Positions 19,733-43,738 of a stretch of 50,376 nt of DNA are shown in pieces (the stretch's first letter is position 1; every line of letters begins with the position of its first letter). Source of the stretch: Nitrospinaceae bacterium (GTDB lineage Bacteria > Nitrospinota > Nitrospinia > Nitrospinales > VA-1); NCBI GenBank assembly GCA_029261695.1, contig JAJDAV010000014.1, positions 1 through 50,376 on the forward strand, written 5' to 3'. Under the pieces are notes generated by a model that made no database searches, was not told the origin of the DNA, and saw only the letters and a program-made list of their open reading frames with translations. The position numbers were made by a program, and so were the translations under genes.

Positions 19733-19753
19733 CCAAAATTTGTTTCAATATTT

Positions 19754-20119: not shown

Positions 20120-20558
20120 AGCAATTTCAGTCAGTTTAAAAGAGCTATCCAAACTAATTGAAGAACTGGGAAGAAATAAAGAAATTGTACTTGGGCTTAT
20201 CAAACAGTTTCCAGACGATTTAAAAAATCATCGTGTGTATTGTGCCTATACCGGAAAAATTAGTGATGCACTAAAACTAAGAATACAAACTGAAAAGATA
20301 GATCCATCGCGCCTACTATCAGAAGCTCTTCAAGTAATTGCAATTTATTTAGCAGAAAACAGTGAAATATCAGCAGCACATTTTATTGGTGATCATGTTG
20401 AGGAAATTGAGGAAAAAGTAATACAACAATGGCGGAATTACCAGGAAGTCGAAAAATTAGTTCTAAACGGACAACAGAAAAAAGAATTAAAGACAGTCTC
20501 AAACCCTTTGGAAAAAGAAGCTCCGAACAAAAAGAAAAATATAAAGAAAAAGCCCTGA
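20094..20558 (+). CDS. Hypothetical phage protein immediately upstream of terminase (small-subunit candidate by position only)
   Basis: 154 aa; overlaps upstream ORF by 26 nt and TerL ORF by 130 nt in another frame. Confidence 0.5.
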   Translation: MQETKISPEAISVSLKELSKLIEELGRNKEIVLGLIKQFPDDLKNHRVYCAYTGKISDALKLRIQTEKIDPSRLLSEALQVIAIYLAENSEISAAHFIGDHVEEIEEKVIQQWRNYQEVEKLVLNGQQKKELKTVSNPLEKEAPNKKKNIKKKP

Positions 20559-22021
20559 ACGATCTTAAGTTTTTTGCGAAGCACTATTTTCCACATCACC
20601 TTACGGAAAATTGTTCTTCCATGCATAAGGAAATGTTCCTTCGATTTCAAGAACATATATTGGAATCTGAGTTATCAGGAAAGGGAAATAAAATCGCGAT
20701 GGCTGCCCCGCGTGGAAATGCAAAGTCTACTCTGACATCATTGATTTTACCACTTTGGTGCATAGTCGGTTATCGAAAAAAATTTATTGTCCTCATTTCA
20801 GATACTTCGGATCAGGCAGAAGAGTTTCTTGAACAGATAAAAACAGAATTGGAAGCAAACGATAGGTTAATTGAAGACTTTCCTGATGCTTGCGGATCTG
20901 GACGAACTTGGAAAGCAGCAAAACTTATTACTAATAATGGTGTTGCGGTTCGCTGTTGGGGAAAAAGAAAACGCTCGAGAGGAGCTCGGCATGGAAACCG
21001 AAGACCTGACTTGGTTATCTGCGATGACCTGGAAGATGATGAAAATATAGATTCACCAGATCAGCGGGAAAAAGATAGGAAATGGTTTTTTAAAGCGGTA
21101 ATGAAAATAGGAGGTCGCTACACGGCATACATCGTTGTTGGAACAGTACTCCATTACGATTCCCTACTTTCCAGGTTGCTGATGCGACCTGGATGGGAGG
21201 CAAAAAAATGGAAAGCCGTTATTAAATGGTCTTCTTCCACACTTTGGGAAAAATGGGAAGCTATTTTTACTTCGCGCAGTCTGGATGCAGAAAAAAGAGC
21301 GGAAAGGTTTTATAAGAGAAATCAAAAGGAAATGTTAAGAGGATCTCAGGTTTTGTGGCCTGAGGCAGAATCTTATTATTATTTGATGGCTATGCGTGTT
21401 TCAGATGGGCCAGCCTACTTCGACTCTGAAAAACAAAATGAGCCTGTAAACCCAGACGATTGTCTTTTTCAAGAAGACTGGTTTCGGTTTATTCCTGAAC
21501 CAATTTTTGTAAATAAAGATTCAAGATTTTATTGTGCAATTGATCCTTCAATGGGATCTGTCTCTAATAAATCCGATCCCTCAGCAATTTTAGTTGGCTG
21601 TGTAAACCCGGATGGAATTATAGATATCATTCAAGCTGATATTCAAAAGCGTCATCCTGATTCAATTATGGAAGCGTTGTTTGAATTTCATAAACAATAT
21701 CGATTTGAAAGAATCGCCATTGAAGAGGTTCAGTTTCAACAATTATTTAAAGATCAGGTTTTGAAAGAGGGCACTAAAAGGAAACTATACCCACCTGTAG
21801 AAGGAGTGAGGCCAATAAACGATAAAACGTTGCGGATATCAAAACTGCAACCGCATATCAAAAATGGCCTTATTCGCTTTAGAAGAAACCAAACCTTACT
21901 TTTGGAGCAGCTAAAATATTTTCCTAAAGCCAGTCACGATGACGGACCCGATGCGTTGGAAATGCTATTTAATTTGATCGACTATGGGTTTTCAGGACCG
22001 CGCATTCGTAGAGTCATCTGA
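20429..22021 (+). CDS. Phage terminase large subunit
   Basis: Walker A-like AAPRGNAKST, Walker B LVICDDLEDDE, nuclease-type AIDPSMG...SDPSAILVG and FPKASHDDGPDALE. Exact start uncertain. Confidence 0.92.
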   Translation: MAELPGSRKISSKRTTEKRIKDSLKPFGKRSSEQKEKYKEKALNDLKFFAKHYFPHHLTENCSSMHKEMFLRFQEHILESELSGKGNKIAMAAPRGNAKSTLTSLILPLWCIVGYRKKFIVLISDTSDQAEEFLEQIKTELEANDRLIEDFPDACGSGRTWKAAKLITNNGVAVRCWGKRKRSRGARHGNRRPDLVICDDLEDDENIDSPDQREKDRKWFFKAVMKIGGRYTAYIVVGTVLHYDSLLSRLLMRPGWEAKKWKAVIKWSSSTLWEKWEAIFTSRSLDAEKRAERFYKRNQKEMLRGSQVLWPEAESYYYLMAMRVSDGPAYFDSEKQNEPVNPDDCLFQEDWFRFIPEPIFVNKDSRFYCAIDPSMGSVSNKSDPSAILVGCVNPDGIIDIIQADIQKRHPDSIMEALFEFHKQYRFERIAIEEVQFQQLFKDQVLKEGTKRKLYPPVEGVRPINDKTLRISKLQPHIKNGLIRFRRNQTLLLEQLKYFPKASHDDGPDALEMLFNLIDYGFSGPRIRRVI

Positions 22022-22089
22022 AAAAAATGAATTTTAATCATCTATTAATAATTAAAACTTTTCAAATTATAGACAGGGAGGGATTATTT

Positions 22090-22482
22090 ATGAGTCTATT
22101 GGTAAACCCAAAGGAACGGATTGTTAACGTTGCCGTTGATGGATACAAAATTAGCTTGGTTTTGCGGCAGTATACGATGAATGAGTATGCCAACTTTATG
22201 GAACAACGCTTTTCGTTTAAGCACACAGGAGAGGTGAATGATAAGTCCATGACCGCTCGAGTACATTTTGTTGACCAATTGCTATTGGATATTCGAGCTG
22301 AAGATGAGGATGGGAGAAAAGAGGAAATCCTTTTTAATGACCCGCAAACAAATGAACAAAAACAATTGACACCACAGGTTCCCAATTGGAAAGAGTTTAT
22401 TGATGCCTCCTGGAAAATTGCAACCGCTATAAAGTTAGAACAGCAGGCGGCACAGCTTGAAAGTAATGTCCTAAAAAACTGA
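22090..22482 (+). CDS. Tail assembly chaperone, short (G-like) product
   Basis: SD GGGAGG before ATG 22090; MSLLVNPKERIVNVAVDGYKISLVLRQYTMNEYANFM; ends at a frameshift signal; upstream of tape measure. Confidence 0.75.
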   Translation: MSLLVNPKERIVNVAVDGYKISLVLRQYTMNEYANFMEQRFSFKHTGEVNDKSMTARVHFVDQLLLDIRAEDEDGRKEEILFNDPQTNEQKQLTPQVPNWKEFIDASWKIATAIKLEQQAAQLESNVLKN

Positions 22483-22521
22483 TTGGCTACCTCCAGGATA
22501 ATGTTTCGGGGCTGGAGGTAG
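22473..22521 (+). promoter_or_regulatory. -1 programmed ribosomal frameshift element
   Basis: In-frame heptamer A AAA AAC (22473-22479), 7-nt spacer TGATTGG, hairpin CTACCTCCAG (22487-22496) / CTGGAGGTAG (22512-22521), 10 bp perfect. Confidence 0.88.
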
Positions 22522-22796
22522 AGTATCAAAAATTTCTTGAAAATGTTGAAGATGAAACAGAAAATCCGAAATGGAATATTCAAAATCATCCCGCACAAAA
22601 AGTCATTAAAAAATATCCTATTGGATTTGGCGAATGGGTTAAATGGCTTGATTTTCTTCTGACCATTCAAAAAAGCGGATACTTGCTTGATCAGGATAAC
22701 CTTTCCCCCCTTACCTGGAAAGGCTTGGCTCTCTTGCGCCAATGGCAGGAAAAACAAAACGATTCTTTAGCAAATCAATTTTTTAAAACCCAATAA
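22479..22796 (+). CDS. -1 frame extension of the tail assembly chaperone (T part of G-T fusion)
   Basis: After -1 slip at AAAAAAC (22473-22479) frame is open from CTG 22479 to TAA 22794-22796: LIGYLQDNVSGLEVEYQKFLENVEDETENPKWNIQNHPAQKVIKKYPIGFGEWVKWLDFLLTIQKSGYLLDQDNLSPLTWKGLALLRQWQEKQNDSLANQFFKTQ. No ORF-track entry. Confidence 0.85.
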   Translation: MIGYLQDNVSGLEVEYQKFLENVEDETENPKWNIQNHPAQKVIKKYPIGFGEWVKWLDFLLTIQKSGYLLDQDNLSPLTWKGLALLRQWQEKQNDSLANQFFKTQ

Positions 22797-22832
22797 ATTT
22801 ATATCCAACACTTTAATTCAGTGGAGGTAATT

Positions 22833-23024: not shown

Positions 23025-23036
23025 TGCGGAGGTTTT

Positions 23037-24101: not shown

Positions 24102-24134
24102 AAAACCAGATATAAAAATATTAAGGAAAAATAT

Positions 24135-25210: not shown

Positions 25211-25294
25211 AACGTTAAATTAATTATAGCTGTAAAGGTCAGCGATTTCGTTTATCAGAACTGTTCAAAATATAAGTCCACTCCTTTCATCGGC

Positions 25295-25530: not shown

Positions 25531-25543
25531 ATTTTGGAATATT

Positions 25544-27384: not shown

Positions 27385-28563
27385 ATGAAAATTATTGATT
27401 GGTTAAAGAATATCAGTACTAAAGAAAGTGCTGTCACTCGGGCTATGACTTTATGGCTTCCCGGGGGGCAGGGAGTTTCCCCAAAAACGGATTACCGGTC
27501 TCTGGCAAAAGAAGGGTTTACGCAGAATAGTGTGTTGTTTTCCTGCGTTAAAGAAATTTCTTCGGCTGTCGCCGGTGTTCCCTGGTCACTGTTTCGACGT
27601 TTGCCTAATGGAGAGCGGCGTGAGGTTTTACAACATCCCATACTGGATTTATTTGAACGGCCTAATCCCTTACAAGGAAAATTTGAATGGATCGAATCTG
27701 CCGCGAGTTTTCTTTATCTTTCGGGAAATGCATATATTGAATGTGTTGGCCCGGGTGACGGTTCGCCCAAAGAACTTTATGTTCTTCGACCTGATCGAAT
27801 GCGTGTTGTTCCCGATCCGGTTCATTTAGTGAGCGGATATGAATATACAGTTTCGGGACGAAAGGTTAAGTTTTCTTCTGAAAGTATTCTTCATCTTAAA
27901 TTATTTCATCCATTGGATGACTGGTATGGATTGTCTCCGGTAGAGGTTGCGGCTTTGGCAATCGACAAACTCAATAGTGGTGATAAATGGAATGCTTCTT
28001 TACTGCAAAATGCTGCGGTTCCTTCGGGTGCTTTGACTTGTAAACAACGATTGACTGATGAACAATTTGATCGATTGAAAACTGAAATGCGTCGGCAGAT
28101 TCAAGGGGTTAATAACGCACGCGAACCTTTACTACTAGAGCAAGATCTTGAGTGGAAGGAGCTGGGAATTTCTCCCAAAGATATGGACTGGATTGAAGGT
28201 TTAAAAATGAGTGCCTTACAGGTTGCGCAAATATATAACGTTCCGCCTGAGTTGATTGGTTTGGGTCCTGCGACTTATCAGAACCGTAAGGAAGCACGCA
28301 AGGCTTTGTATACGGAAGTGGTTTGTCCTTTTCTAAATCGTTTTCGCGATGCTCTAAATAATTGGTTAGTACCGCGTTTTTCAGAAAACCTTTTTTTGGA
28401 TTACAACAAAGATGGTATTGAAGCATTGTCAGAGGATCAGGAGGCTTTGTGGAATCGCGTTAACCAAAGTGATTTTTTAACGCTTAATGAAAAACGTCGC
28501 ATGGTGGGCTTCGATGAAGTTCCCGGAGGGGACAAGCTAATGCCAAAAAATATTTCTATTTAA
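27385..28563 (+). CDS. HK97-family portal protein
   Basis: NSVLFSCVKEISSAVAGVPWSLFRR, HPILDLFERPNP, LSGNAYIE, LRPDRMRVVPD, IYNVPPELIGLG. Confidence 0.95.
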   Translation: MKIIDWLKNISTKESAVTRAMTLWLPGGQGVSPKTDYRSLAKEGFTQNSVLFSCVKEISSAVAGVPWSLFRRLPNGERREVLQHPILDLFERPNPLQGKFEWIESAASFLYLSGNAYIECVGPGDGSPKELYVLRPDRMRVVPDPVHLVSGYEYTVSGRKVKFSSESILHLKLFHPLDDWYGLSPVEVAALAIDKLNSGDKWNASLLQNAAVPSGALTCKQRLTDEQFDRLKTEMRRQIQGVNNAREPLLLEQDLEWKELGISPKDMDWIEGLKMSALQVAQIYNVPPELIGLGPATYQNRKEARKALYTEVVCPFLNRFRDALNNWLVPRFSENLFLDYNKDGIEALSEDQEALWNRVNQSDFLTLNEKRRMVGFDEVPGGDKLMPKNISI

Positions 28564-28579: not shown

Positions 28580-29260
28580 ATGAAAGAGATTAAATCGTTT
28601 CCATTCAAAATGGACGCAATTAATGATGCAGGTGAGTTTTGCGGTTACGCTTCTACATTCGGGTCTATCGATCTGGGTGGTGACGTGGTGGTAAAAGGCG
28701 CATATAAAAAAACATTGATTGAGAGTAAGGGACGATTCCCTATTCTCGACCACCACGATCCCACCCGCCAAATTGGTTGGAATGTAGAAGCTCATGAAGA
28801 CGAACGTGGTTTATTTGTACGTGGCTTGCTCGACTTGAATGTTACTGCGGCAAAGGAACGTCATAGTTTAATGAAAATGGCGCAGAACATTGGCGGAAGG
28901 ACCGGGCTTTCCATCGGTTTTCGGGTTATTAAAGAAGAGGCCGATAACAAACGTCCTGAAATCCGCCTGCTTAAAGAAATTCAACTCATGGAATACAGTG
29001 TTGTTACGTTTCCGATGAACCGCCAGGCAGGGGTCATCAGCGTGAAAGCCAAAGAAGAATTGATCGGCCAGTTTTTAAAAAACGCCGTAGGAATGGATCC
29101 GAGGCAGACTCGGCTGGCGATTCGCAATTTAAAATCACTCCTTATCAGGAAAAATGAGCCGGGTTTGACCCACTCTTTTGGCAAAGGAGCCGATTTTAAG
29201 GGAAAAGGGATGCTGCGGCAATCCCTTCAAAGGCTATTGAATGATGTAAGACAAGCATAA
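28580..29260 (+). CDS. HK97-family prohead protease
   Basis: GYASTFGSIDLGGDVVVKGAYKKTL, DHHDPTRQIGW, GGRTGLSIGFRV, LMEYSVVTFPMNRQA. Confidence 0.93.
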   Translation: MKEIKSFPFKMDAINDAGEFCGYASTFGSIDLGGDVVVKGAYKKTLIESKGRFPILDHHDPTRQIGWNVEAHEDERGLFVRGLLDLNVTAAKERHSLMKMAQNIGGRTGLSIGFRVIKEEADNKRPEIRLLKEIQLMEYSVVTFPMNRQAGVISVKAKEELIGQFLKNAVGMDPRQTRLAIRNLKSLLIRKNEPGLTHSFGKGADFKGKGMLRQSLQRLLNDVRQA

Positions 29261-29377
29261 TTTACTTAAAACAACCCAATTTACCCTCGTTTGGCCCAAA
29301 TAATTATGAAAAGGTTCCTTATTATATAGGTACTTTCATAAGGTGCCTGCGGGGGTTTCTTTTTGAAGGAGAATGAC

Positions 29378-30568
29378 ATGGAAGAGATCAAACAGCTCGT
29401 AGAAGAGCTCAACCAGGCATTTTTGGAACACAGAAGCAAAAATGACCAACGTTTATCGGAAATTCAGAAAAAGGGATATGCCGACCCAGTTTTAGAAGAA
29501 CAGGTAGACCGTATTGCTAAAGAGATACAAAACCTTACGGAAGTGAAACAGCGCATTGAAAAAGTTGAGACCAAATTGAATCGCCCCGCAATGGCAGAAC
29601 ATGAAAACCTAGACCCCCACTCAAATGCAAGGAAGCAGGCTGTGGTGCATTACCTTAGAAAAGGTGAGGGGCTATTATCTGCGGATGAAGTCAAATTACT
29701 TTCTTCGGATAGTGATCCGGACGGTGGTTATTGGATGACTCCTGAAATTTCTGAACGCGCGGTTCAAAAAGTTTATGAGACTTCTCCGATGCGCAATATC
29801 GCTACGGTAGAAACTATTTCAAGTGATGCTTTGGAAATTCCTGAAGATCTTAACGAAGCGGACAGTGGTTGGACCAGTGAACGTGCATCTCGTCCTGAAA
29901 CAAACACTCCGCAGATTGGTGTTCGCCGCATTCCAGTGCATGAACTTTATGCGATGCCAAAAGCAACGCAAACATTGCTCGATGATTCACGCATTGATGT
30001 CGAAACCTGGTTATCAATGAAGATCGCGGACAAAATGTCGCGCATAGAAAATTCATCCTTCGTAAACGGGGATGGTTCTGGAAAACCTCGTGGAATTCTT
30101 ACCTACCTGGCGGGGACAAACAATCCGGGAGAGGTTCAACAAATTAATACTGGAAATGCCAGCTCATTGACAGCTGATGGGCTTCGCACTCTTTTTTATG
30201 CATTGAAAAGTCCATACATTCCCAATGCAAGGTGGCTTATGTCCCGAAGCGCGATTGAAGAAGTCTCAAAATTAAAAGACTCCAGCGGTTCTTATATTTG
30301 GCAACCCGGTTTCCAAGAAGGCGAACCACAAACGTTGTTGGGCCATCCCATTGAACGTATGGAAGATATGCCGCAAGTTGCAGCGAATTCTTTGTCTGTA
30401 GCATTTGGTGATTTTAGTCAGGCTTATACCATTGTTGATCGGATGGGATTACGTGTTTTACGTGATCCATTCAGTTCCAAACCCTTTGTATTGTTTTACA
30501 CCACAAAACGCACCGGTGGCGATGTGACTAATTTCGAAGCTTTTGCCATTCAGAAAACTGCTGCATAG
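29378..30568 (+). CDS. HK97-family major capsid protein
   Basis: N-terminal coiled coil, then SDPDGGYWMTPEISERAV, SSFVNGDGSGKPRGIL, WLMSRSAIEEVSKLKDSSGSYIWQPG, FGDFSQAYTIVDRMGLRVLRDPF. Confidence 0.95.
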   Translation: MEEIKQLVEELNQAFLEHRSKNDQRLSEIQKKGYADPVLEEQVDRIAKEIQNLTEVKQRIEKVETKLNRPAMAEHENLDPHSNARKQAVVHYLRKGEGLLSADEVKLLSSDSDPDGGYWMTPEISERAVQKVYETSPMRNIATVETISSDALEIPEDLNEADSGWTSERASRPETNTPQIGVRRIPVHELYAMPKATQTLLDDSRIDVETWLSMKIADKMSRIENSSFVNGDGSGKPRGILTYLAGTNNPGEVQQINTGNASSLTADGLRTLFYALKSPYIPNARWLMSRSAIEEVSKLKDSSGSYIWQPGFQEGEPQTLLGHPIERMEDMPQVAANSLSVAFGDFSQAYTIVDRMGLRVLRDPFSSKPFVLFYTTKRTGGDVTNFEAFAIQKTAA

Positions 30569-31078: not shown

Positions 31079-31282
31079 ATGAAAATTAAGATGCTTAAAA
31101 CCCGACAAGGGTCACCGGATGGTATTTCAGTTCATACCTATTGCGCGGAAGATATTGTTGAAATTCCCGAGGAACTTGCAAAAGTTTTTATTCGCAAGCG
31201 TTGGGCTAAAAATATGGAATCTAAAAATCTGGGTAATGCTCCTGAAAATAAAAGAGCCAGAGCCCGAAAAAAAAGTGGCTAA
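31079..31282 (+). CDS. Small hypothetical phage protein
   Basis: 67 aa in-line ORF between head genes. Confidence 0.5.
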   Translation: MKIKMLKTRQGSPDGISVHTYCAEDIVEIPEELAKVFIRKRWAKNMESKNLGNAPENKRARARKKSG

Positions 31283-31286
31283 TAAC

Positions 31287-31922
31287 ATGGCATTAAAAAT
31301 TAAAACTTCACCTTCTTTGGAACCGGTTACGGTTGCCGAAGCTAAAAATCTGTTGCGTATTGATGATGGTAACGATGACACCTTGATCGCATCCATGATT
31401 ACTGCAATTCGTCAACGCGCTGAAGAATGGACTAGCCGGTCATTTATTACCCAGACTTGGACACTTTGGCTGGATGAATTTCCTTTTCGGACTGGAAACA
31501 GGATCCAAAGTATAAATGGGCGGGTCATGGTAATTCCACGACCTCCGATGCAGTCGGTCTCATTTATCAAAACTTACGATAAAGATAATGCAGCGTCAAT
31601 TTTCGAAGCAAGTAACTATTTTGTTGATATTGCCTCATCCCCTGGAAGGATTGCTTTGAATGAAAATAGTACTTGGCCCACCCCGCTTAGAAAATTTAGT
31701 TCTGTGGAAGTTGAATTTATGGCGGGCTATGGATCCACTGCAAGTAATATTCCGGAAGGAATTAAACAAGGCATGTTGCAGTGGATAAAACTATTATTCG
31801 CAAATAAATCCAAGTTATACGAATCTGATGAATCAACTCCAGGGTTATTGGAGATGAATCAAATACCTATACCTCCCCTGGTACGGATGCTTTGGGAACC
31901 CTATAGGCTTGTTCAGCTTTAA
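31287..31922 (+). CDS. Head-tail connector (gp6-like)
   Basis: SLEPVTVAEAKNLLRIDDGNDDTLIASMITAIRQRAEEWTSRSFITQTWTLWLDEFP; start reassigned to ATG 31287. Confidence 0.88.
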   Translation: MALKIKTSPSLEPVTVAEAKNLLRIDDGNDDTLIASMITAIRQRAEEWTSRSFITQTWTLWLDEFPFRTGNRIQSINGRVMVIPRPPMQSVSFIKTYDKDNAASIFEASNYFVDIASSPGRIALNENSTWPTPLRKFSSVEVEFMAGYGSTASNIPEGIKQGMLQWIKLLFANKSKLYESDESTPGLLEMNQIPIPPLVRMLWEPYRLVQL

Positions 31923-31935
31923 AAAATAAATTGAT

Positions 31936-32403
31936 ATGTCTATTACAGTTCAGCTTGACTCGTTTGGAAAAATTAAAAACTGGTTAAAAAACTTATCTAT
32001 TAGTTTGAAAAATGTGGCAAACGCTACAGGCCGAAGGGTTACTAATGATTCTGAACAACTTGCAAAAGAGCGGGTGCGTTCTCCAAATATGAAACCCGAG
32101 AAAAGAACCGGGGCCTATCTTCAGTCGATTGAATCGGAATTTAAAGGTGGCACCGTTTCTTTTCTGGGAACTTTGAAAAGCGATTCTTCTATCGCCGGTA
32201 TTATTGAGTTTGGTAGTCGACCGCATATTATTAGACCCAAAGGCAATAAAATTTTGTTTTGGCCGGGAGCTAAACATCCCGCAAAAGAAGTTCAGCATCC
32301 CGGAACTCCAGAATTTCGCGTTCTTGGGGATGCTGTAGAGGCGGGTATTTTTAAAGTAGATGAAAAACTTGCAAAAGAATTTAAGAAACATTTTAAAACT
32401 TAA
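31936..32403 (+). CDS. HK97 gp10-like head-tail/tail completion protein
   Basis: GIIEFGSRPHIIRPKGNKILFWPG...VQHPGTPEFRVLGDAVE. Confidence 0.75.
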   Translation: MSITVQLDSFGKIKNWLKNLSISLKNVANATGRRVTNDSEQLAKERVRSPNMKPEKRTGAYLQSIESEFKGGTVSFLGTLKSDSSIAGIIEFGSRPHIIRPKGNKILFWPGAKHPAKEVQHPGTPEFRVLGDAVEAGIFKVDEKLAKEFKKHFKT

Positions 32404-32426
32404 ATTAACTTAATTCGTGGAGAGTA

Positions 32427-32900
32427 GTGGTGACCGACTACACAGCTTTTGGTAATGCCATTAAAACAACCTTACAAAACGATACGTGGATAGGGAATAA
32501 CGTTCGAACGGTAGAAATTCATAAGCGAGGATTCTCAATTCAGGAAGAGAAGGACGCGCGGTATTTTTCTAAGGAGGATCTTCCTGCTATTGCTGTTATT
32601 CCCAATTCTGGAGCCAAACAGCAAGAAATTCAAACTACCAATGAAATTCGTGAGACTGTTCCAGCACAGATCGTTACGGTTACTCGAATGCGCAATGCGC
32701 AAATTGGAAATGAAGAAAATCTTTTGGTTGTTAATAATATTGAACGGATTCTTGATAAACAAAAGAGTTCTACAAACAATCTTGGAATTGATGCTTTCGT
32801 ACAAAGCGTTAGCACCACGGGGGAACAGTTTAAAAAAGGGGAATACTATTATTTTATTTCTACGACAACAGCCCAAATTGAAATAATAACCCCATTCTAA
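32427..32900 (+). CDS. Probable tail terminator-like protein
   Basis: Size and position between gp10-like and tail tube genes. Confidence 0.45.
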   Translation: MVTDYTAFGNAIKTTLQNDTWIGNNVRTVEIHKRGFSIQEEKDARYFSKEDLPAIAVIPNSGAKQQEIQTTNEIRETVPAQIVTVTRMRNAQIGNEENLLVVNNIERILDKQKSSTNNLGIDAFVQSVSTTGEQFKKGEYYYFISTTTAQIEIITPF

Positions 32901-32930
32901 TAATTCATTAAAAATATTAACGAGGGCTGC

Positions 32931-34001
32931 ATGCTATTGCAGTTTGAGGATAAAACTATGGCGACAAAAAGAATTACCACCGGATGGCGAGGGTTTTCCA
33001 CGGCAAAAGAAACAACCTATGGAACTCCGGCAGTACTGGCAACTTCCTTTAATTTTGAAGGACCTATTACCGATATCCAACCAAATGAGGTTCAAACGGA
33101 TGAAAATGAGGTAACTGGATTGAATGAACCCGCAAAACAGGAAGTTCTCAACTGGAAACTCGATGGCAGCCATCAACAACGGGCCATGCCACATAATCTC
33201 GCGCACTTTTTAACAATGGTTATGGGAAAAGTCACCACAGATCAACCAGATATTGCAAACGATCCCAGTGTTTATCGACATTATATTGAGCGTGACCTAA
33301 TTAGCATTACCCTGCCTTCTCTGACCATGGTGGAGTATGACGGAATTGCCGCAAAACGATTCAGTGGATTGTTTGGAAAATCTGTAAAAATTAGTGGCGA
33401 ACGCGGTGACTTTGTAAAACTTGATGCCCAGTTCGGTGGTATGGGGAAGGAAGAGTCCAGTATCGATTCTAAGCCCACAGTTGTTGGAGAATCTTATCTG
33501 CGTTATGGGGATGTTAATTTTATGCGAGGTGGTTCCCTGTCTGGATCTGTTTCTTCAGGTGATCTTTCTATCGTTGGTACCCCTACCTCACTTAAGGGAG
33601 ATTTACAATCATTCGAATGGACGATTGATAACCAGGCTCAAACTATTTATGAAATGGGTGATAGCAGCAGCTTTGTAAGCCGTGTAGAACGTGGTGATAA
33701 GTTCAGCCAAAGTTTGTCAGCATCCCTCGAAATGCAAGACGATACACACAAAACTGGGCTGATTAACGGCACTGAATATGTGATTAATATTCCCATCACC
33801 GGTTCGGTTATTGGTGGAGGATCCGGGTCATATAAATTTTCATGCGACATTATTTTTCCGAAAGTAGTTTATAAAGAGGCAAAGAAAGATCGAGATGGAG
33901 AAGTTGTTAAGGTTAATGCAGAATTTCAAATTCTTGAAGATACGACTTATGGTTCCGTGATTGTTAAAATTATTAATGAGCAAACAAGTTATCTAATTTA
34001 A
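32931..34001 (+). CDS. Major tail tube protein-like
   Basis: RITTGWRGFSTAKETTYGTPAVLATSFNFEGPITDI; size and position; likely start MATKRITTG. Confidence 0.65.
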   Translation: MLLQFEDKTMATKRITTGWRGFSTAKETTYGTPAVLATSFNFEGPITDIQPNEVQTDENEVTGLNEPAKQEVLNWKLDGSHQQRAMPHNLAHFLTMVMGKVTTDQPDIANDPSVYRHYIERDLISITLPSLTMVEYDGIAAKRFSGLFGKSVKISGERGDFVKLDAQFGGMGKEESSIDSKPTVVGESYLRYGDVNFMRGGSLSGSVSSGDLSIVGTPTSLKGDLQSFEWTIDNQAQTIYEMGDSSSFVSRVERGDKFSQSLSASLEMQDDTHKTGLINGTEYVINIPITGSVIGGGSGSYKFSCDIIFPKVVYKEAKKDRDGEVVKVNAEFQILEDTTYGSVIVKIINEQTSYLI

Positions 34002-34091
34002 AAATAGAAATGAGGGTTAACCCAAAATTTGATTTATTAATTAATTTAATCTTGAAATTTGAGGTTAATTTTTTTCTTTTGGAGTTTGTTT

Positions 34092-34466
34092 ATGAGTTTT
34101 GGTTTTTATTTTCCAATGAAAACATCTTCTGTAGTTCAATGGATACCCGAAACGTTCCCCGATTATCCTGCGCTTGAGCCTGTAGACTTTCCTGAACAAG
34201 TTACCTCAATTACGTCTGGTGGTACGGTTTATGTCCAAGACAAAGGACCCTTCCTAGAATTGTTTTCTCTTTCTTTCAGCCGGGTGAGTCAGGTAGACAG
34301 GGACGGGGCCCTGGTATTTTTTAAAACGGTTAAAAAATCGTTTGAAAGTTTTGAATATGAAGACAGAACGGGAACCTTACACACCGTTAGATGGATGAAT
34401 TCGTTTAATTTCCAATTGGTAGTTTTTGGAAAGTATTCAGGGTCGATTGAATTGCGAAAACAATAG
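34092..34466 (+). CDS. Hypothetical tail protein
   Basis: MSFGFYFPMKTSSVVQWIPETFPDY; in tail block. Confidence 0.5.
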   Translation: MSFGFYFPMKTSSVVQWIPETFPDYPALEPVDFPEQVTSITSGGTVYVQDKGPFLELFSLSFSRVSQVDRDGALVFFKTVKKSFESFEYEDRTGTLHTVRWMNSFNFQLVVFGKYSGSIELRKQ

Positions 34467-34475
34467 GAGAAAAAG

Positions 34476-34793
34476 ATGTTGGATTGGAATAATTGTGGGC
34501 TAGATGATTTCTCGTTTGAAATTAATGGTGAAGAAATTCAGGAAATTGGTCAAAGGCAAATGTTTCCTGTAAAAGTTTTTTATAAAGATGGGACATTGGC
34601 TTTTATTACATCTATTCCTTTTCGATCAGAATTTTATTGGCAACTTCGCGGGCGAGAAGACTGGAAAGAAAAATTGATGGCCATTATAAAGCAACGTTTA
34701 AAGGTAGAAATAACCGAACGGATTCGGTCTAGCCAAATGACTATTGATGACAAATTGGAAATTATTGAAACGGGTCAAAAGACAATTGTTTAA
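34476..34793 (+). CDS. Hypothetical tail protein
   Basis: 105 aa in-line ORF with upstream GGAG. Confidence 0.5.
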   Translation: MLDWNNCGLDDFSFEINGEEIQEIGQRQMFPVKVFYKDGTLAFITSIPFRSEFYWQLRGREDWKEKLMAIIKQRLKVEITERIRSSQMTIDDKLEIIETGQKTIV

Positions 34794-34815
34794 TTGCCTA
34801 TTTTGAGGAAAATTA

Positions 34816-37710
34816 ATGAGAACGGATTTTACTACGGGCTTTACAACAGCTCGGATTAAAAAGGCGAATGCGCCCATCAATCTAATACAGATTGATTGGC
34901 CGGCACTGAATGGCTTGTCTGCATTGACTCTACGATTTACCGACCGCAAGGGTATAAATATTGATGGAGTGGATTGGTTTCCTCTTGTTAAGGATATGGG
35001 GAATATTGATAGACTTATTACAGCGGATCACCTTACAGCAAATTCTGGAGCTAGTCTTACCGTGGAAGTTGTAAATGTTCCTGTAAGCTTGTTTGGTTTG
35101 GAAAATAGGTTTTCTCATCTGTTTCGGAATCGTCCACCTGAGGCTTCTACGGTTAAAGTTTACCAATGGTTTGCGGGAGAGGGACTCGCAGGTTCTGACT
35201 TTGCTGAAATTTTTGTAGCCCGTATGGGTGATCCTATCACTTATGATGAGTCTACTTGTACCTTTGATTTAATTGATATTTCAGAAGGTTATGGTTCGCG
35301 TATTCTAGGAAATTCGATTAGCCTTCAGGATTACCCGAATGCACCTGAAGATTCCATTGGAAAAACTAAACCCATTGTTATAGGGGCTGTTGATGGTGCT
35401 CCAGGGATATTGGTGCGGAAATCGCAACAAACCGTGCTGACATCTGTTGCCACACCTGGTGGATCGATTTTGACAGTGGCATCGACTGAGAAATTTCCTT
35501 CCTCTGGGACACTAGTGATAAATGATGATGAGGTGGATTACACGAGTATTAATTCTTCCCAGTTTTTAGGATGTAGCGGTATTAATGAATTTCATTATGC
35601 CGACGATTCGGTTTTGGAAAAGGTTGCGGATCATAGATATTTATTTAGTGACCCAAGATATCCAATCAAAAATATTTCCAATGTGAAGGTTGGTGGGCAT
35701 TTTGTGGGTTCTGGAGATTATTCTATAGATATCAATTTAGGTGAAGTGGTCTTCAGTTCGAAACCAAAAATATCCGATTCCATTGATACAAAATTTCTTC
35801 AAGCTCAGAACGACCAAGTTGGTTCTGGAAATACGGCTTTTGATCCTATAAATGCCATGATTCCAAATAGCCCGACTAGTTACGCTAAAATTAATCAGAA
35901 TAACGACACCCTTTCTTTAAAGCAAACTGACAACCTGCCCAATATTGGAGAAATTGGAAAAGTATTTTTGAGAGTTGAACATTTTGTAGAGGAAAAACTA
36001 CCTAATGATAGCTTAACGGCGCACATTACCGGTGTGGGTCAGGTTGGAAGTTTGTCGGCCCCGGCTGTAGATGATGTGGTAGTGGCCAGTGGGACAACCG
36101 ATATTACTCATACTCATTTGGATACTTTGGGTTTTCCTATTACTGATCCTCAACATCAACACTCAGAGTCTTTGCCTCCCAAAATTACACAAAATGCTCT
36201 ATCGGGCGTTGGTGGCCAGGTGATTATTTTGACATCTGGTCAAACACATACCATTTCTTTTGCTGACCCCGGTCCTGGCACTTGGGCAACAGCAGAATAT
36301 GGAATATCATTTGAATGGACGGGTACAGCTGCAGGCGGATCTTTTAAAGCGGTTTCTGCTACCTCACAGTGCAACTCCTCTTTTGGTTATCAACTTTGGT
36401 CTATTAGCGGTACAACACAGACCTATTCCACGGGTGGGAACATTGATAATGCCTGCAATACCATTGTTATTGGTCATAATACCAGTCTGGTTCATTTTTA
36501 TATAAGATCCGCTACTCGGGTTATTACCATGGCAACAGCAAATTCCGTTTCTATTCAACCCACAAATATTTCCACTTCTAAGGCTGGAGAGATTTCACAG
36601 CATGTTTCCAGTCCCGCGGTAAGCTCTACATCGGAAAAAGCTACGCGCAGCGTAATTGATCTTTTTGATATTTCGTCTCATGTAAATGGTGATTGGAACT
36701 GGTTCGAGGATCGAGAAAGCCAGATTAAATATAGTGGTTCAAGCGATGGGCGTACGGCCTTTATTGTTCATTTGGCTTATGAGGTGGAATATGCAAGACG
36801 GAGAATCGAATTTACCGATAAAGTTTCTGCGGAAATTTCAGGAGTTCAAGATGATGCGGTAGCAACTATTACAGGAAATGCCCATTCATTGATTGAACGA
36901 CCGGACCATATTTTTAAGTGGTCTATTCTTCATGGATTGAAGTTGGACGCCTCTCAAATTGATCTTAATTCCATTGACCAAGCTGGAATCTTATTTGGTA
37001 ATTCCGATTATTTGTTTGGAGGCATTGTTCAGGAAAAGGTTTCTTTTTCCGATTTGTGGCAACAATGGGGAAAGGAATGCAGGTCCTATTTATATTGGGA
37101 TTTGGGGAAGGCTAAAATCCTTTTTCGGCCTTTAAATCTGTCTACCTCGGAAACCGTTGTTAATAAGATTATTTTAGAAAATATGGTTTTGATTGATTCA
37201 AACGGTGTGATTGAGTTTAAGGTTACGCGGAACCCCATTAGTAATGTTGTAAATAAATTGGACCTTAGGTTTAACAGGAATTGGACGAATAATGATTACC
37301 ATGCGGTGGAAAGCTTTTTGGATTTGGAATCTCAAAATAAATTTGGGTTAAAAGAAAAACCGGGAGAGTTCGAATTTAATTGGATTCGTGATCAAACCAT
37401 GGCTTCCGATATTGGGAATTACTATTTGGAAGAGTTAAAGGAGCCAAGGGATGTTTATGATATAGGTTTACTTTTGGACAATATGGAAATTGAAAAGGGA
37501 GATATCCTTGAGGTTAATCCTCCAATTCATGAACTTAAAAAGGTGCATGCCCTTGTTCTTGGATCGGGGAGAGTCGTGGGTTCTGGTGTTGACCAGAGAA
37601 TGGATACTGTAAGAATTCTTGCAAGACAGATGGGAGGGGTTGTGGGTAATAACGGATTTGGTCTACAGGGTTTTGGAACAAGTGGGTTTGCAGGGGTAGA
37701 AAGAAATTGA
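34816..37710 (+). CDS. Large tail tip/baseplate hub protein
   Basis: 964 aa; N-terminal IQIDWPALNGLSALTLRFTDRKGINIDGVDWFPLVKDMG plus C-terminal Gly-rich GNNGFGLQGFGTSGFAG; largest late gene. Confidence 0.75.
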   Translation: MRTDFTTGFTTARIKKANAPINLIQIDWPALNGLSALTLRFTDRKGINIDGVDWFPLVKDMGNIDRLITADHLTANSGASLTVEVVNVPVSLFGLENRFSHLFRNRPPEASTVKVYQWFAGEGLAGSDFAEIFVARMGDPITYDESTCTFDLIDISEGYGSRILGNSISLQDYPNAPEDSIGKTKPIVIGAVDGAPGILVRKSQQTVLTSVATPGGSILTVASTEKFPSSGTLVINDDEVDYTSINSSQFLGCSGINEFHYADDSVLEKVADHRYLFSDPRYPIKNISNVKVGGHFVGSGDYSIDINLGEVVFSSKPKISDSIDTKFLQAQNDQVGSGNTAFDPINAMIPNSPTSYAKINQNNDTLSLKQTDNLPNIGEIGKVFLRVEHFVEEKLPNDSLTAHITGVGQVGSLSAPAVDDVVVASGTTDITHTHLDTLGFPITDPQHQHSESLPPKITQNALSGVGGQVIILTSGQTHTISFADPGPGTWATAEYGISFEWTGTAAGGSFKAVSATSQCNSSFGYQLWSISGTTQTYSTGGNIDNACNTIVIGHNTSLVHFYIRSATRVITMATANSVSIQPTNISTSKAGEISQHVSSPAVSSTSEKATRSVIDLFDISSHVNGDWNWFEDRESQIKYSGSSDGRTAFIVHLAYEVEYARRRIEFTDKVSAEISGVQDDAVATITGNAHSLIERPDHIFKWSILHGLKLDASQIDLNSIDQAGILFGNSDYLFGGIVQEKVSFSDLWQQWGKECRSYLYWDLGKAKILFRPLNLSTSETVVNKIILENMVLIDSNGVIEFKVTRNPISNVVNKLDLRFNRNWTNNDYHAVESFLDLESQNKFGLKEKPGEFEFNWIRDQTMASDIGNYYLEELKEPRDVYDIGLLLDNMEIEKGDILEVNPPIHELKKVHALVLGSGRVVGSGVDQRMDTVRILARQMGGVVGNNGFGLQGFGTSGFAGVERN

Positions 37711-37759
37711 CTTAAAAAACTATATTAAATTTGGAATGTTAAAACGATTGAGGTTATGA

Positions 37760-38221
37760 ATGACTAATACTTTTACAGCAAATTTGAATTTGGCCATACC
37801 CGGACCGGGTGATTTAAATTGGGAAAATGAATATTCTGATTTTGCAAATGCAGTTGATGATTTGGGAAATTTACTTTGTTTTACTATTTCTGCCCACGAT
37901 GCGGCTCAAAATGGAATTGTTTTTTTTGATGGATTTATTCCTGAAGAAACTATTTTTGTTCGGGCGGTTGGAATTTTTTCCCAGGTACCTCCGACCGGCC
38001 AAAACTTAAAGATTGATATATTGAAAAATTCAACGGATCAAAATAATGAAGCGGTTTTAACTGATGGAAGTCAGTTTGAAAAAACTACTCTTGCTACAGG
38101 TATTTTATTTTCTAACAGTGATCGGTTGGGTTTGAAATTTTCCCAAGTTGGTTCTGTCAACGCCGGAGATAAAATTGTTGTTACTATTTATTTTCAAAAG
38201 GAAGCTATTGCAACGGTGTGA
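37760..38221 (+). CDS. Small tail fibre/appendage-type hypothetical protein
   Basis: Last plus-strand ORF of the tail module; beta-rich. Confidence 0.45.
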   Translation: MTNTFTANLNLAIPGPGDLNWENEYSDFANAVDDLGNLLCFTISAHDAAQNGIVFFDGFIPEETIFVRAVGIFSQVPPTGQNLKIDILKNSTDQNNEAVLTDGSQFEKTTLATGILFSNSDRLGLKFSQVGSVNAGDKIVVTIYFQKEAIATV

Positions 38222-38239: not shown

Positions 38240-38662
38240 CTAGGATTGCGATAAAAACTTTTCAATGATCTCACGAATTTGAGAAACTACTTTTTTAATT
38301 TCCAAGGGTTTGGTAATGATTCCGTTCATTCCATTGCTTAAATAGTTTTCGTGATCGCTTTGCTCATTGTTTGCGGTCATTGCAATTATTGGGGTGGGGA
38401 CTCTTGACGTGTCGGAGGATTCCAAGGCTCTTATTTTTTGAGTTGATTCCAAACCATCCATAACGGGCATATGGATATCCATCAGAATTACATCAAAAGA
38501 ATCCTTTTGAAACGCTTCGTAAGCCTGAAGACCATTTTCGACAGCCGTAATATCGTGGCCTCTTCTCTTCATTAGTTTCGTAGCTAATGCTACGTTAACC
38601 GCTGTGTCATCTGCCAGTAATATTTTAAGGGGTGGGCCATCGTCTTTTTTCTTATCGTCCAT
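38240..38662 (-). CDS. Stand-alone response-regulator receiver (REC) protein
   Basis: KILLADDTAVNVALATKLMKRRGHDITAVENGLQAYEAF...DVILMDIHMPVMDGLESTQKIRALE...PIIAMTAN...GMNGIITKPLE; no output domain. Confidence 0.93.
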   Translation of the reverse strand: MDDKKKDDGPPLKILLADDTAVNVALATKLMKRRGHDITAVENGLQAYEAFQKDSFDVILMDIHMPVMDGLESTQKIRALESSDTSRVPTPIIAMTANNEQSDHENYLSNGMNGIITKPLEIKKVVSQIREIIEKFLSQS

Positions 38663-38712
38663 AGGTAATATTATTCCGACATGGATTCGATGTAAAGCAT
38701 TAAAAATGCTAT

Positions 38713-39606
38713 TTATAGCTCTTTCCAGGCTCCAATAACTCGGCCTACCACTGGGTCGGGGTTTTCGTCCAGATTTATTATCTGTACTTGGGAAAGGGGA
38801 TTGATGGGTCTTAAAACTAATAGATTTTGTTGGCGTTCTAGGTATTTGGCGGTCAAACCTCCTTCATGAAATATTGCGAATATTCGATTTTTTGACCATT
38901 TTTTATCATCTCGGTCGATAACCACAATATCTCCGGAATGAAGCATCGGTTCCATTGATTCTCCATCCACTCGGCTGGCTACCAGATTTTTTCTTTTTCC
39001 TGCTGCACGAATATGTAAAAGAACATAATCTTCAATATTTTCTTCTTGGATAATAGGTTGGCCTGCAGCTATTGAAGAATCTGTAAGTGGTATGGACACG
39101 TAATCTTCACTTTTTATTTCTGGTGCTGTCGATAAGCTTTCTGGCTGGAAAATTTTTAGTTTCGGGGTTTGAACGGGTGCCGAATCTCCCTCCTTAATTA
39201 ATTCATGAGGGGGTATATCCATTTTCTCTGATAGGTTGCTTAATAAATCAGAGGATACCGGCCAGCTCCCATTCTCATAAAATTTTAAAACCTGAGGAAT
39301 CATGCAAAGATATTGCCCCATTTCCTCCAGGGACCAACCTCTCCCTTTTCTATATTTTTTTAATTTTTTCCCGACAATTTGGTTGATGGGCGTTAGGGAA
39401 TCTTTTCCTGTTATCAACCAATTTAAGTTGAGGCAAAAGTGATTAGCTATTTTTTCTAAGGTGAGGGAGTCAGGGGGTCCGTTATTTCTCTGATAACTTT
39501 TCCTAAAATTTTCATAATTTAAACCAACCTGGCGGCAAAACTCAGCCAGATTATCACTGCCCGGCAAAACCTCTATTCTTTCCCAGATCCTATTTTTATT
39601 ATGCAT
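38713..39606 (-). CDS. Phage repressor with two HTH segments and S24 (LexA/CI-like) peptidase domain
   Basis: SDNLAEFCRQVGLNYENFRKSYQR...LNLNWLITG; VGKKLKKYRKGRGWSLEEMGQYLCMIPQVLKFYENG; VDGESMEPMLHSGDIVVIDR Ser motif and LTAKYLER Lys motif. ATG start at 39606 preferred over TTG at 39627. Confidence 0.85.
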   Translation of the reverse strand: MHNKNRIWERIEVLPGSDNLAEFCRQVGLNYENFRKSYQRNNGPPDSLTLEKIANHFCLNLNWLITGKDSLTPINQIVGKKLKKYRKGRGWSLEEMGQYLCMIPQVLKFYENGSWPVSSDLLSNLSEKMDIPPHELIKEGDSAPVQTPKLKIFQPESLSTAPEIKSEDYVSIPLTDSSIAAGQPIIQEENIEDYVLLHIRAAGKRKNLVASRVDGESMEPMLHSGDIVVIDRDDKKWSKNRIFAIFHEGGLTAKYLERQQNLLVLRPINPLSQVQIINLDENPDPVVGRVIGAWKEL

Positions 39607-39885
39607 GTTATCAAAAAAACTTGACAAATAGAGACTTATGTCCCATATTTATATTCGGTTATGTGAAATTTGTCCCTATTCCGAAACTCAATGGTAAATT
39701 AAAAAACTATCGGATATAGAATATGGTTAAAAGGTTTTTTAGTATTTAGGGGTCTTATTCATCCAAATTTGATTGATTATAGCACTAAAATGGATGAAAT
39801 TTTAAGGGGTTATTTAACTTTTTAAGAGTCCAAAATTAATCTATGCCTAAAATTTTGATATAGATAAATTAAAAGGCTTGTATTA

Positions 39886-40782: not shown

Positions 40783-41574
40783 ATGAAAATTATTGTTTGT
40801 ATCAAGCAGGTTCTGGACACTGCAGCTAAAATTGAAATTCAGGGTGAAAAAGTTGTTTCCCCTGGAAGTCCATTTATCATGAACCCATACGATGAGTTTG
40901 CAGTAGAAGAAGCAGTTCGTATTAAGGCCGCTTTACCTGAATCTGAAATTATTGTTTTTTCAATGGGGCCGGACAGCGTTAAAGAAACGCTTAAGAGAGC
41001 TTTGGCCATGGGAGCTGACCAGGCAGTTCATTTAACAGATCCTTTGTTTGAAGGTCTCGACAATTCCCTGGTTGCAAAAATTTTAGCAAAGGCTATCCAA
41101 AAACAATCTTTTGATTTAGTTCTTTGTGGGAGGCAAGCGGTTGATGATGATATGGCTCAGGTTGGTCCTGCACTGGCCGTGTTGTTGGAGATACCGTTCA
41201 TAACTATTGTTACCCAACTACAATTTTCTGATAATTTTCAAACCGCTGATATTACACGGCAAGTGGAAGGCGGTAGTGAGGTTCGAAAAAACATGTCTCT
41301 ACCTTTTCTTGTAACTTGCCAGAAAGGTTTGAATGAGCCTCGACTTCCATCTCTCAAAGGTATAATGGCAGCTAAGAAAAAGGAGATTCAAAACCTCTCA
41401 GCCTCTGACCTCGGTTTGGAAGAGGGATTGCTTAATCCGCGAAATAATAAGTTGCATGAGATAAAACTGTCCTTGCCTCCTGAAAGGAAAAAAGGAATAA
41501 TCCTTGAGGGTTCGGATGAAGATATTGCTAAACAGTTGGCCACAATAATCCGTGAAGAAGAAAAGATCATTTAA
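40783..41574 (+). CDS. etfB: Electron transfer flavoprotein beta subunit
   Basis: MKIIVCIKQVLDTAAKIEI, NPYDEFAVEEAVRIK, GMGAD-like ALAMGADQAVHL, CGRQAVDDDMAQVGPALA. Confidence 0.95.
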   Translation: MKIIVCIKQVLDTAAKIEIQGEKVVSPGSPFIMNPYDEFAVEEAVRIKAALPESEIIVFSMGPDSVKETLKRALAMGADQAVHLTDPLFEGLDNSLVAKILAKAIQKQSFDLVLCGRQAVDDDMAQVGPALAVLLEIPFITIVTQLQFSDNFQTADITRQVEGGSEVRKNMSLPFLVTCQKGLNEPRLPSLKGIMAAKKKEIQNLSASDLGLEEGLLNPRNNKLHEIKLSLPPERKKGIILEGSDEDIAKQLATIIREEEKII

Positions 41575-41594
41575 TTTAAAAAGGCCTTATCAAA

Positions 41595-41780
41595 ATGAAT
41601 GACACTTCAGCGTCTGACAGCACCCGTGAGCAAAACTTTTTGCAAAAAAATAAAGAAAAGTTAGGGCTGGGAGCTCTTGTTGTTTACGTCCTTCTCCTTG
41701 GTCTTGGTACAATAGGGGAGATATGGGAGGTCGAGTGGATTCTTGATCTACCTTTGTTCAGGCCCCCCGGCAAGTATTAA
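41595..41780 (+). CDS. Small single-TM hypothetical protein between etfB and etfA
   Basis: 61 aa; LGLGALVVYVLLLGLGTIGEIWEV hydrophobic helix. Confidence 0.55.
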   Translation: MNDTSASDSTREQNFLQKNKEKLGLGALVVYVLLLGLGTIGEIWEVEWILDLPLFRPPGKY

Positions 41781-41933
41781 TATAAAATAATATCCATATT
41801 GGGCTAAGCCTAAAATGTCTTTTTAAATCCTTCCGCTTAGATCTCCTTCATTTTCGTTTCTCCGTTGTAGTTTTTTTGTAGCTGGGTTATCCTTCCTGTT
41901 TTTCAATGTTATAAAATTATTCTGGAGTATGTA

Positions 41934-42917
41934 TTGGATAATAAATTTACGATCGTGGTTGTAGTTGAACACGATCAAAATGCAATCAAGCCAGTTACCT
42001 TTGAAGTTTTAAATGCAGCTCGTACTATAGCGGATTCAGTCATTGCATATTATTTTTCTGACAATGCTGAGGTTGATGTAGAGCCACTGATTCAGGGGGG
42101 TGCGGATGAGGTCAAGATATGTCATAACTCGGACTTTGCTTCCTATACCCACGAAACCTACGCAGCTGCATTAAAAGCCGAGATTGAAAAAACTCAGCCC
42201 GATCTTATCCTGTTATCCGCTTCAAACAATGGTAAAGAACTAGCCGCCGAGATGGCCACTCGACTCGATGTTGGGTTGGCAACGGATTGCGTGGACCTTC
42301 AACTCTCTGAGGGAGAAGTGATCGTAAAGCGGCCAGTGTTTTCTGGTAAAGCTTATTCTCTGTGCCGCTTGAGTGGGGCCAAACCTTACTTGGTTACTTT
42401 GCGCCCAAACATATTTAGAGGTGAAGGAACCGCTGAGACCCGAACGGGTAATGTAGTAAAAGAAGAAATTAATCTACCGGATTTTTCAAAGATTGTGGGT
42501 GAATTGACTCGCGAAGTCGGAGCTGAGCTTGATGTCACTGAGGCACGGATTATTGTATCTGGTGGATTGGGCATGCAAGCACCCGAAAACTTTAAATTCC
42601 TGGAAGACCTGGCGGAGGTTTTAGGTGCAGCTGTGGCGGCCTCTCGCCCCGTAGTAGACAATGGATGGCAGGAATACTCCCACCAGGTGGGACAAACGGG
42701 CAGGACCGTTTCTCCCGATTTATATATTGCCTGCGGGATTTCTGGTGCAGTACAACATTTGGCAGGTATGTCGTCCTCTCGGTGTATCGTTGCGATAAAC
42801 TCTGATCCTCATGCACCCATTTTTTCGGTTGCGGATTATGGTATTGTCGGTGATGCCCTGAAAATCGTCCCTTTGTTAACTAAAGAATTTAAAAATATTT
42901 TGGGTGATCAGGGCTGA
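41934..42917 (+). CDS. etfA: Electron transfer flavoprotein alpha subunit
   Basis: LILLSASNNGKELAAEMATRL, C-terminal FAD-binding VDNGWQEYSHQVGQTGRTVSPDLYIACGISGAVQHLAGM, INSDPHAPIFSVADYGIVGD; TTG start. Confidence 0.96.
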   Translation: MDNKFTIVVVVEHDQNAIKPVTFEVLNAARTIADSVIAYYFSDNAEVDVEPLIQGGADEVKICHNSDFASYTHETYAAALKAEIEKTQPDLILLSASNNGKELAAEMATRLDVGLATDCVDLQLSEGEVIVKRPVFSGKAYSLCRLSGAKPYLVTLRPNIFRGEGTAETRTGNVVKEEINLPDFSKIVGELTREVGAELDVTEARIIVSGGLGMQAPENFKFLEDLAEVLGAAVAASRPVVDNGWQEYSHQVGQTGRTVSPDLYIACGISGAVQHLAGMSSSRCIVAINSDPHAPIFSVADYGIVGDALKIVPLLTKEFKNILGDQG

Positions 42918-42932
42918 TTCCCATCCAGAATA

Positions 42933-43565
42933 ATGAATATCAAAGAAATTTTAAAAGACCCCCGTTTAGGCCTTTCCCCCGATGCTCCCTCTGAGCAAAT
43001 AGAGTTTCAAATACAATCCTATCTTGATCTGCTGGTAAAGTGGAATCACAAAATTAACCTCACCTCTGAAAAACTTCCTCAGGACATTTTAAGCCGTCAC
43101 ATTTTTGATTCATTGCAATACGCCCGGGTATTATCTGTTTCCGACCGGTTCATGGATATTGGTAGCGGGGCAGGGTTCCCCGGTGTTCCTATTAAAATAG
43201 TCTATCCTCAAACTACCGCCGTTTTAGTCGAGAGCCAAAGAAAACGATGCAGCTTTCTTGAATCAGTAACACAAAAACTCAACCTTGAAGACACCACTGT
43301 GATCAATGATAGAGCAGAGAATATATCTATTTCTTCAAAGATTGATACGGTGATATTTAGGGCGGTTTCCGATATCAAGAGCTGTTTGAGTTTGGCAGAA
43401 AGATTTTTGGGAATTGACGGGAGGGTTGTACTGAAGAAAGACCCTGAAGAAAAAATCGAAATAAGTCAAACCCTTGATGATTTTTTGCTCCAACAGGAAG
43501 TAGTGGTTACCGGCTTTAACGATAAAAAATCCAGCTTAATGGTTTTTAAAAAATACGCTCCCTAA
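42933..43565 (+). CDS. rsmG: 16S rRNA (guanine-527-N7)-methyltransferase
   Basis: LVKWNHKINLTSEK, RHIFDSLQY, FMDIGSGAGFPGVPIKI. Confidence 0.95.
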   Translation: MNIKEILKDPRLGLSPDAPSEQIEFQIQSYLDLLVKWNHKINLTSEKLPQDILSRHIFDSLQYARVLSVSDRFMDIGSGAGFPGVPIKIVYPQTTAVLVESQRKRCSFLESVTQKLNLEDTTVINDRAENISISSKIDTVIFRAVSDIKSCLSLAERFLGIDGRVVLKKDPEEKIEISQTLDDFLLQQEVVVTGFNDKKSSLMVFKKYAP

Positions 43566-43569
43566 GCAA

Positions 43570-43585
43570 TGTTTCACGTGAAACA
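43570..43585. promoter_or_regulatory. parS site 1
   Basis: Perfect TGTTTCACGTGAAACA. Confidence 0.98.
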
Positions 43586-43614
43586 TGGGTGTGGATTTAG
43601 GGGGGGGGTGAAAT

Positions 43615-43630
43615 TGTTTCACGTGAAACA
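43615..43630. promoter_or_regulatory. parS site 2
   Basis: Perfect TGTTTCACGTGAAACA, 45 bp from site 1. Confidence 0.98.
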
Positions 43631-43738
43631 ATTGACCCCATTGCCAGGGGTAAAAGAGGTCAGAATCTATGAAATATATTTGGTAGAAAGATGGATTTAT
43701 GCTAATTTCTAGAAAGCATACCTCGAATATTAGGCATA

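Follow-up and report, generated by a model that had tools for sequence, protein, structure and literature searches.

The window, a stretch of 50,376 nucleotides, is Nitrospinota chromosome and carries phage-like genes between dnaA-gyrB-gyrA and etfBA-gidB-parAB (Table 1). We consider it very probable that a ribosomal frameshift in this cluster makes two proteins, G and the fusion G-T, and that the cluster most likely holds the genes for a host-inherited particle of the gene transfer agent (GTA) type rather than for an infectious phage. The frameshift itself is a known phage device. The larger result is the cluster, which, as judged by its placement and gene trees, is anchored at the origin, vertically inherited and unlike a typical phage. 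An earlier note on this DNA, which described the frameshift, had left this setting out.

Slip site and reading frames

Read from ATG 22090, the zero frame passes through GTC and ends in CTA AAA AAC TGA (22471-22482), with A_AAA_AAC in the zero-frame register and in the X_XXY_YYZ pattern of a programmed -1 ribosomal frameshift site. From CTG 22479 the -1 frame stays open to TAA 22794-22796 (105 codons); 5' of the slip site it is open for only 4 codons, without a start codon. Both strands of the window were scanned for any slippery heptamer followed by few remaining zero-frame codons and an extended -1 frame, and this approach returned the slip site and one ordinary gene overlap. Our rereading agrees with the earlier note on the end of the open reading frame and the register of its heptamer, on the 105-codon open -1 frame, and on the perfect 10-bp hairpin with a 15-nt loop behind a 7-nt spacer (TGATTGG). 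Two details had to be corrected. The mechanical start of G would be ATG 22027; a ribosome-binding site precedes ATG 22090 instead, giving a protein of 130 aa and 15.1 kDa and a G-T fusion of 235 aa and 27.5 kDa. Further, the junction had been written as ...VLKK-LIG..., whereas tandem slippage on A_AAA_AAC would yield ...VLKN-LIGYLQDNV... (junction peptide NLIGYLQDNVSGLEVEYQK). The KK form would arise only where the ribosome slips ahead of AAC decoding.

Table 1. Coordinates of the frameshift elements, the head-tail cluster and its host flanks in the window.
Feature	Position	Strand	Evidence or remark
Host flank: gyrA, gyrB, dnaA	12337..19031	-	
Large terminase	20429..22021	+	phrog_38, E 2e-115
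G, zero-frame putative tail assembly chaperone, 130 aa, end LKN-stop	22090..22482	+	homologues in 19/77 Nitrospinota genomes
Slippery heptamer A_AAA_AAC	22473..22479	+	zero-frame register; invariant in 22/22 distinct sites with readable heptamer
T, -1 frame extension, 105 aa + TAA	22479..22796	+	homologues; dN/dS in relatives
Zero-frame stop TGA, abutting heptamer	22480..22482	+	
Spacer TGATTGG, 7 nt	22480..22486	+	length preserved in alignment A3
Hairpin, 10-bp stem (22487-22496 / 22512-22521), 15-nt loop	22487..22521	+	folding and covariation
Small ORF between T and tape-measure-like gene, 67 aa	22821..23024	+	36% match between terminase and portal in G008
Tape-measure-like paralogue 1, 354 aa	23037..24101	+	27% identity to 26147-27253 over its length
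Tape-measure-like paralogue 2, 368 aa	26147..27253	+	several tail length tape measure PHROGs, best E 1.2e-6
Portal	27385..28563	+	PF04860, E 3e-82
Prohead protease	28580..29260	+	PF04586, E 1e-23
HK97-type major capsid	29363..30568	+	PF05065, E 7e-83
Head-tail connector, neck/completion protein, tail tube (32931-34001, PF18906)	31119..34001	+	
Further tail genes, including a 964-aa protein (34816-37710)	34059..38221	+	gene order kept in relatives
Response-regulator receiver and S24/HTH repressor-like gene, cluster edge	38240..39627	-	flank kept in relatives
Host flank: etfB, etfA, gidB, parA, parB	40783..45399	+	

Conservation of the site was followed in the relatives that the genome collection names as Nitrospina, Nitrospinaceae or Nitrospinota. 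A protein search of 60 related genomes recovered 14 homologous sites besides the window, each with a T homologue in the -1 frame from the last base of the heptamer. Profiles of G and of T, searched separately against 77 Nitrospinota genomes, converged on one set of 19 genomes and 21 sites, and at all 21 G ends on the base with which T begins (one masked copy, in G035, matched T from its seventh residue owing to N). The heptamer was readable at 22 distinct sites, one of them on a viral contig, and 21 of these were readable throughout. A_AAA_AAC is present at every one of the 22. A stop codon stands right behind it in 19 of the 21 fully readable sites, and the remaining two have one within 1-4 codons. 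Identity to the window copy is 30-45% for G (most distant prophage copy left out) and 29-52% for T at the 13 other loci of alignment A2, or 29-54% without the most distant prophage copy. In-frame A_AAA_AAC occurs 112 times in 355,217 codons of Nitrospinota open reading frames (about 3 per 10,000), and 21 of these occurrences fall in the final six codons of the frame, more than chance would give. The earlier note had named homologues that lack both the heptamer and the open -1 frame as one kind of evidence against it; this test was run, and the homologues did not refute the note. Genomes that carry the cluster without G and T were examined for another frameshift site and gave no convincing candidate. 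Across the aligned copies the slip site is strictly conserved, which makes the frameshift, as read from the alignment, an unusually well-conserved case of an ordinary phage trick.

These homologues also bear on the possibility that the split frame reflects an assembly error or a decayed gene. The window does come from a draft assembly, in 220 contigs. The same architecture, however, appears in every independent assembly in which the sequence can be read, and both frames have a dN/dS well below 1. The homologues thus refute this explanation, to which we assign next to no probability.

T is under purifying selection, with dN/dS of 0.08-0.23 in close pairs. Its first codon is CTG, CTA or CTC, followed by ATC, ATT, ATG, GTC, AGT or CTG, and the short open stretch upstream contains no start codon at most sites. 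The locus therefore has the selected -1 frame, devoid of a start of its own, that is a mark of programmed -1 frameshifting, and fusion to G is the simplest route to T because most sites have no start codon upstream. T could also be a separate protein, made by ribosomes that reinitiate close to or at the zero-frame stop, with an A-rich heptamer that is incidental; the stop does fall right where T starts, an arrangement seen in genes with stop-start coupling. We find reinitiation very improbable, since the -1 frame has no conserved ATG, GTG or TTG around the junction, and it leaves both the 22 identical heptamers and the covarying hairpin at fixed spacing unexplained.

A putative stimulatory hairpin

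The 10-bp stem lies 7 nt behind the heptamer, within the distance (about 5-9 nt) at which a downstream stimulatory structure is expected. Folding of 22473-22560 gave -23.0 kcal/mol (z -3.19), a value equaled in only 1 of 200 shuffles, and folding placed a hairpin at the same position in all 21 fully readable sites. In the alignment, 96% of the cells of the 10-bp stem are paired, compared to 32-54% in slid controls. Double changes affect 4 of the 10 pairs and 13 cells (4.3 in shuffles), counts that are inflated by sequence relatedness; none of 500 shuffles matched the double-change cell count or the covariation score of the stem. The clearest covarying pair is C-G in 11 sequences and U-A in 9. 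One of its bases is the first position of a Leu/Phe codon and its partner the synonymous third position of a Glu codon, so the link between the two is not demanded by the protein. The most divergent copies (L003, L015 and L076) retain the stem through different pairs. Compensatory changes among homologues therefore back the hairpin that had been described from the window.

The hairpin also helps weigh the possibility that G-T arises by transcriptional slippage, from mRNAs with altered numbers of A. Runs of A are the usual substrate of polymerase slippage, and a six-A run is present at nearly all sites. The run is, however, short (six A, seven at one site), and polymerase slippage would need neither the C, nor the register, the 7-nt spacing or the covarying hairpin, all of which are conserved. 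We regard transcriptional slippage as extremely improbable. With ribosomal slippage, the majority of the ribosomes that start at 22090 would halt at TGA 22480 and release G. A minority, slowed by the hairpin, would slip back one base on A_AAA_AAC and continue to the end of G-T. In E. coli constructs, A_AAA_AAC is reported to shift less readily than A_AAA_AAG (PMC5009743).

Identity of G and T

Sequence searches of G and T against Pfam, PHROGs and PDB returned no credible match, a protein search of G or T in phage records returned none, and neither did a search of viral contigs with a single G sequence. G was modeled confidently by AlphaFold2 (pLDDT 88.8); the model of T is poor (pLDDT 70). In a library of viral structures, the two best matches to the G fold were tail assembly chaperones, one from a Bacillus phage and one from a haloarchaeal virus (probability 0.99-1.00, E about 0.003, modest TM-score), and the top three, annotated as tail assembly chaperones, had probabilities of 0.97-1.00; a fold search of the PDB with G returned noise only. 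G and T lie upstream of a tape-measure-like gene, and the tail tube (32931) is part of the same module, the arrangement expected of a lambda-type pair. The earlier note had assumed the chaperone identity. The fold matches and the order tail tube, G/T, tape measure in two related prophages now give it a basis, and G/T is, by predicted fold, synteny and the frameshift, a probable tail assembly chaperone. In lambda, G binds the tape measure and T binds the tube protein (PMC5009743). By analogy with gpG/gpGT, the Nitrospinota G would coat the tape measure, and the T domain would recruit the tail-tube protein, which would polymerize to the measured length.

The tape measure had been placed just downstream of the chaperone. 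A tape-measure-like gene does follow, at 23037, but the 67-aa open reading frame intervenes. The cluster in the window has two tape-measure-like paralogues (27% identity) and a single G-T pair.

The head-tail cluster and its place in the chromosome

The phage-like cluster spans 19499-38221 (18-19 kb). Its structural proteins are, by sequence similarity, derived from tailed phages, as are those of GTAs (PMC9662315). Two genes of other kinds lie within it. One, at 25544-26119 on the opposite strand between the tape-measure-like genes, carries four near-identical zinc-ribbon repeats; the other (24425-25210) encodes a beta-propeller-like (NHL/SGL) protein, which G008 has too. The response-regulator receiver and S24/HTH repressor-like gene at 38240-39627 (minus strand) may reflect host control of the cluster.

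The same placement, with dnaA on one side and etf/par on the other, recurs in many genomes, which span several genera and families. Trees built for 20 genomes from DnaA+GyrB+GyrA and from terminase+portal+protease+capsid have 16 of 17 splits in common, and their distances correlate with an r of 0.91 and a slope of 1.01; the sole mismatch is a poorly supported branch. At least four genomes that no longer have the cluster retain remnants of its edge at this locus, and in other genomes without it dnaA is joined straight to etfB. Together, the remnants and direct joins fit a cluster that was present in the ancestor and has been lost repeatedly. Among the scanned proteins of the cluster none matched an integrase, and the GC content of the cluster (0.395) is that of the host flanks (0.40). 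Thus, the cluster is endogenized, vertically inherited and congruent with its host, in the sense used for GTAs (PMC9662315), with the exception of the G-T cassette. Some genomes of other families carry the origin cluster without a recognizable tail tube and G-T.

We weighed these observations against the alternative of an ordinary long-lived prophage, or of repeated prophage integrations at one site, that was never domesticated. Head and tail genes typical of phages, a tail cassette common to prophage-like loci, the S24 repressor-like gene at the cluster edge and a capsid with about 45% identity to its counterpart in free phages are all consistent with a prophage. Such an element is, however, difficult to reconcile with one host junction across several genera and families, congruence with the host at unit slope in 16 of 17 splits, a GC content equal to the flanks, deletion remnants at the locus, and cluster proteins among which no integrase was found. 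We therefore consider the prophage explanation unlikely and favor host inheritance of a GTA-type cluster.

Movement of the G-T cassette

In most genomes the G-T cassette follows the tail-tube gene. It is displaced in the window, where it follows the terminase; in G022 and G010 it comes behind the gene that follows the capsid, and in G018 behind two additional tail genes. Between the window (G000) and G008 the distance is 0.58 for G-T, 0.12 for the head genes and 15% for the tail tube. The cassette, judged by these positions and distances, evolves faster than the remainder of the cluster, has been moved or replaced, and is not strictly co-inherited. We infer that this tail-length cassette has been exchanged, possibly with prophages.

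Likely exchange partners are two prophage-like loci away from dnaA, G030:C19 (L056/L057) and G040:C12 (L127). Both carry the tail tube, G with A_AAA_AAC, T in the -1 frame and a tape measure, in that order, and their tail tube is homologous to that of the window cluster. In contrast, their terminase, portal and head genes are unrelated to it: G030:C19 has a GpA terminase, a lambda-type portal and a Mu-like head, and G040:C12 another terminase and head type. Their tape measures are also longer (609 aa in G030:C19, 572 aa in G040:C12).

One further locus, L126 (G063:C40), has two G-T pairs in a single cluster. They are separated by about 4.7 kb, tape-measure-like sequence follows each of them, and the second pair groups with the viral contig L028. 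This contig and L029 (both from IMG/VR) hardly resemble free phages, as both bear Nitrospinota chromosomal head-tail genes; the G-T site sequence of L029 is that of genome G018.

A candidate gene transfer agent

GTAs have phage-derived structural proteins, are fully endogenized, and package and deliver random host DNA, their own genome being unpackageable (PMC9662315). On its genomic features the cluster looks like such an element and is a candidate GTA. An 18-19 kb cluster fixed beside dnaA and inherited with the chromosome makes a GTA-type particle the most likely product. This would be a short-tailed, phage-like particle under host control, which may transfer DNA and would not be an infectious phage. 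At 1.5 angstrom per residue, tape measures of roughly 350-370 aa would give it a tail of about 55 nm. A more specific reading, on which our confidence is evenly balanced, is that the clusters represent an independently derived Nitrospinota GTA family beside the origin genes, whose heads co-descended across families and whose frameshifted chaperone/tape-measure cassette was repeatedly moved and exchanged with prophages. A search of open-access full text for Nitrospina, Nitrospinae or Nitrospinota together with gene transfer agent found no such element described, which is not proof of novelty, and none of the open-access GTA literature searched described a programmed frameshift in a GTA.

The frameshift is a well-supported case in a protein family missing from Pfam and PHROGs, and gene callers would overlook its T domain. 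A frameshift retained under selection, with a covarying hairpin, within a cluster that descends as core genes do, is evidence that complete tails are still built, and makes the GTA hypothesis testable in Nitrospinota. The position beside dnaA and parAB would give the genes the highest copy number in replicating cells. Nitrospinota include major marine nitrite oxidizers, and the phylum matters for the marine nitrogen cycle.

Comparison with known systems

Phage lambda slips on the heptamer GGGAAAG. The Nitrospinota site differs in having A_AAA_AAC, a stop abutting the slip site and a strong covarying hairpin. Furthermore, the Nitrospinota G/T shows no detectable sequence similarity to phage chaperone families and sits in a vertically inherited chromosomal cluster. 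In both systems, G and T overlap, T is a -1 frameshift extension only (a predicted one in Nitrospinota), a tape measure is nearby and the tail-tube gene is in the same cluster (PMC5009743).

With RcGTA, BaGTA and BhGTA the cluster shares tailed-phage head-tail genes fixed at one chromosomal place, co-diversification with the host, no integrase found and short tape-measure-like proteins (PMC9662315, PMC3610622). BaGTA sits close to a phage-derived replication origin, and the Nitrospinota cluster next to chromosomal origin genes (PMC9662315, PMC3610622). Unlike these three GTAs, the cluster belongs to the phylum Nitrospinota, encodes a particle that is predicted from sequence, and has a tail cassette that varies in both place and sequence.
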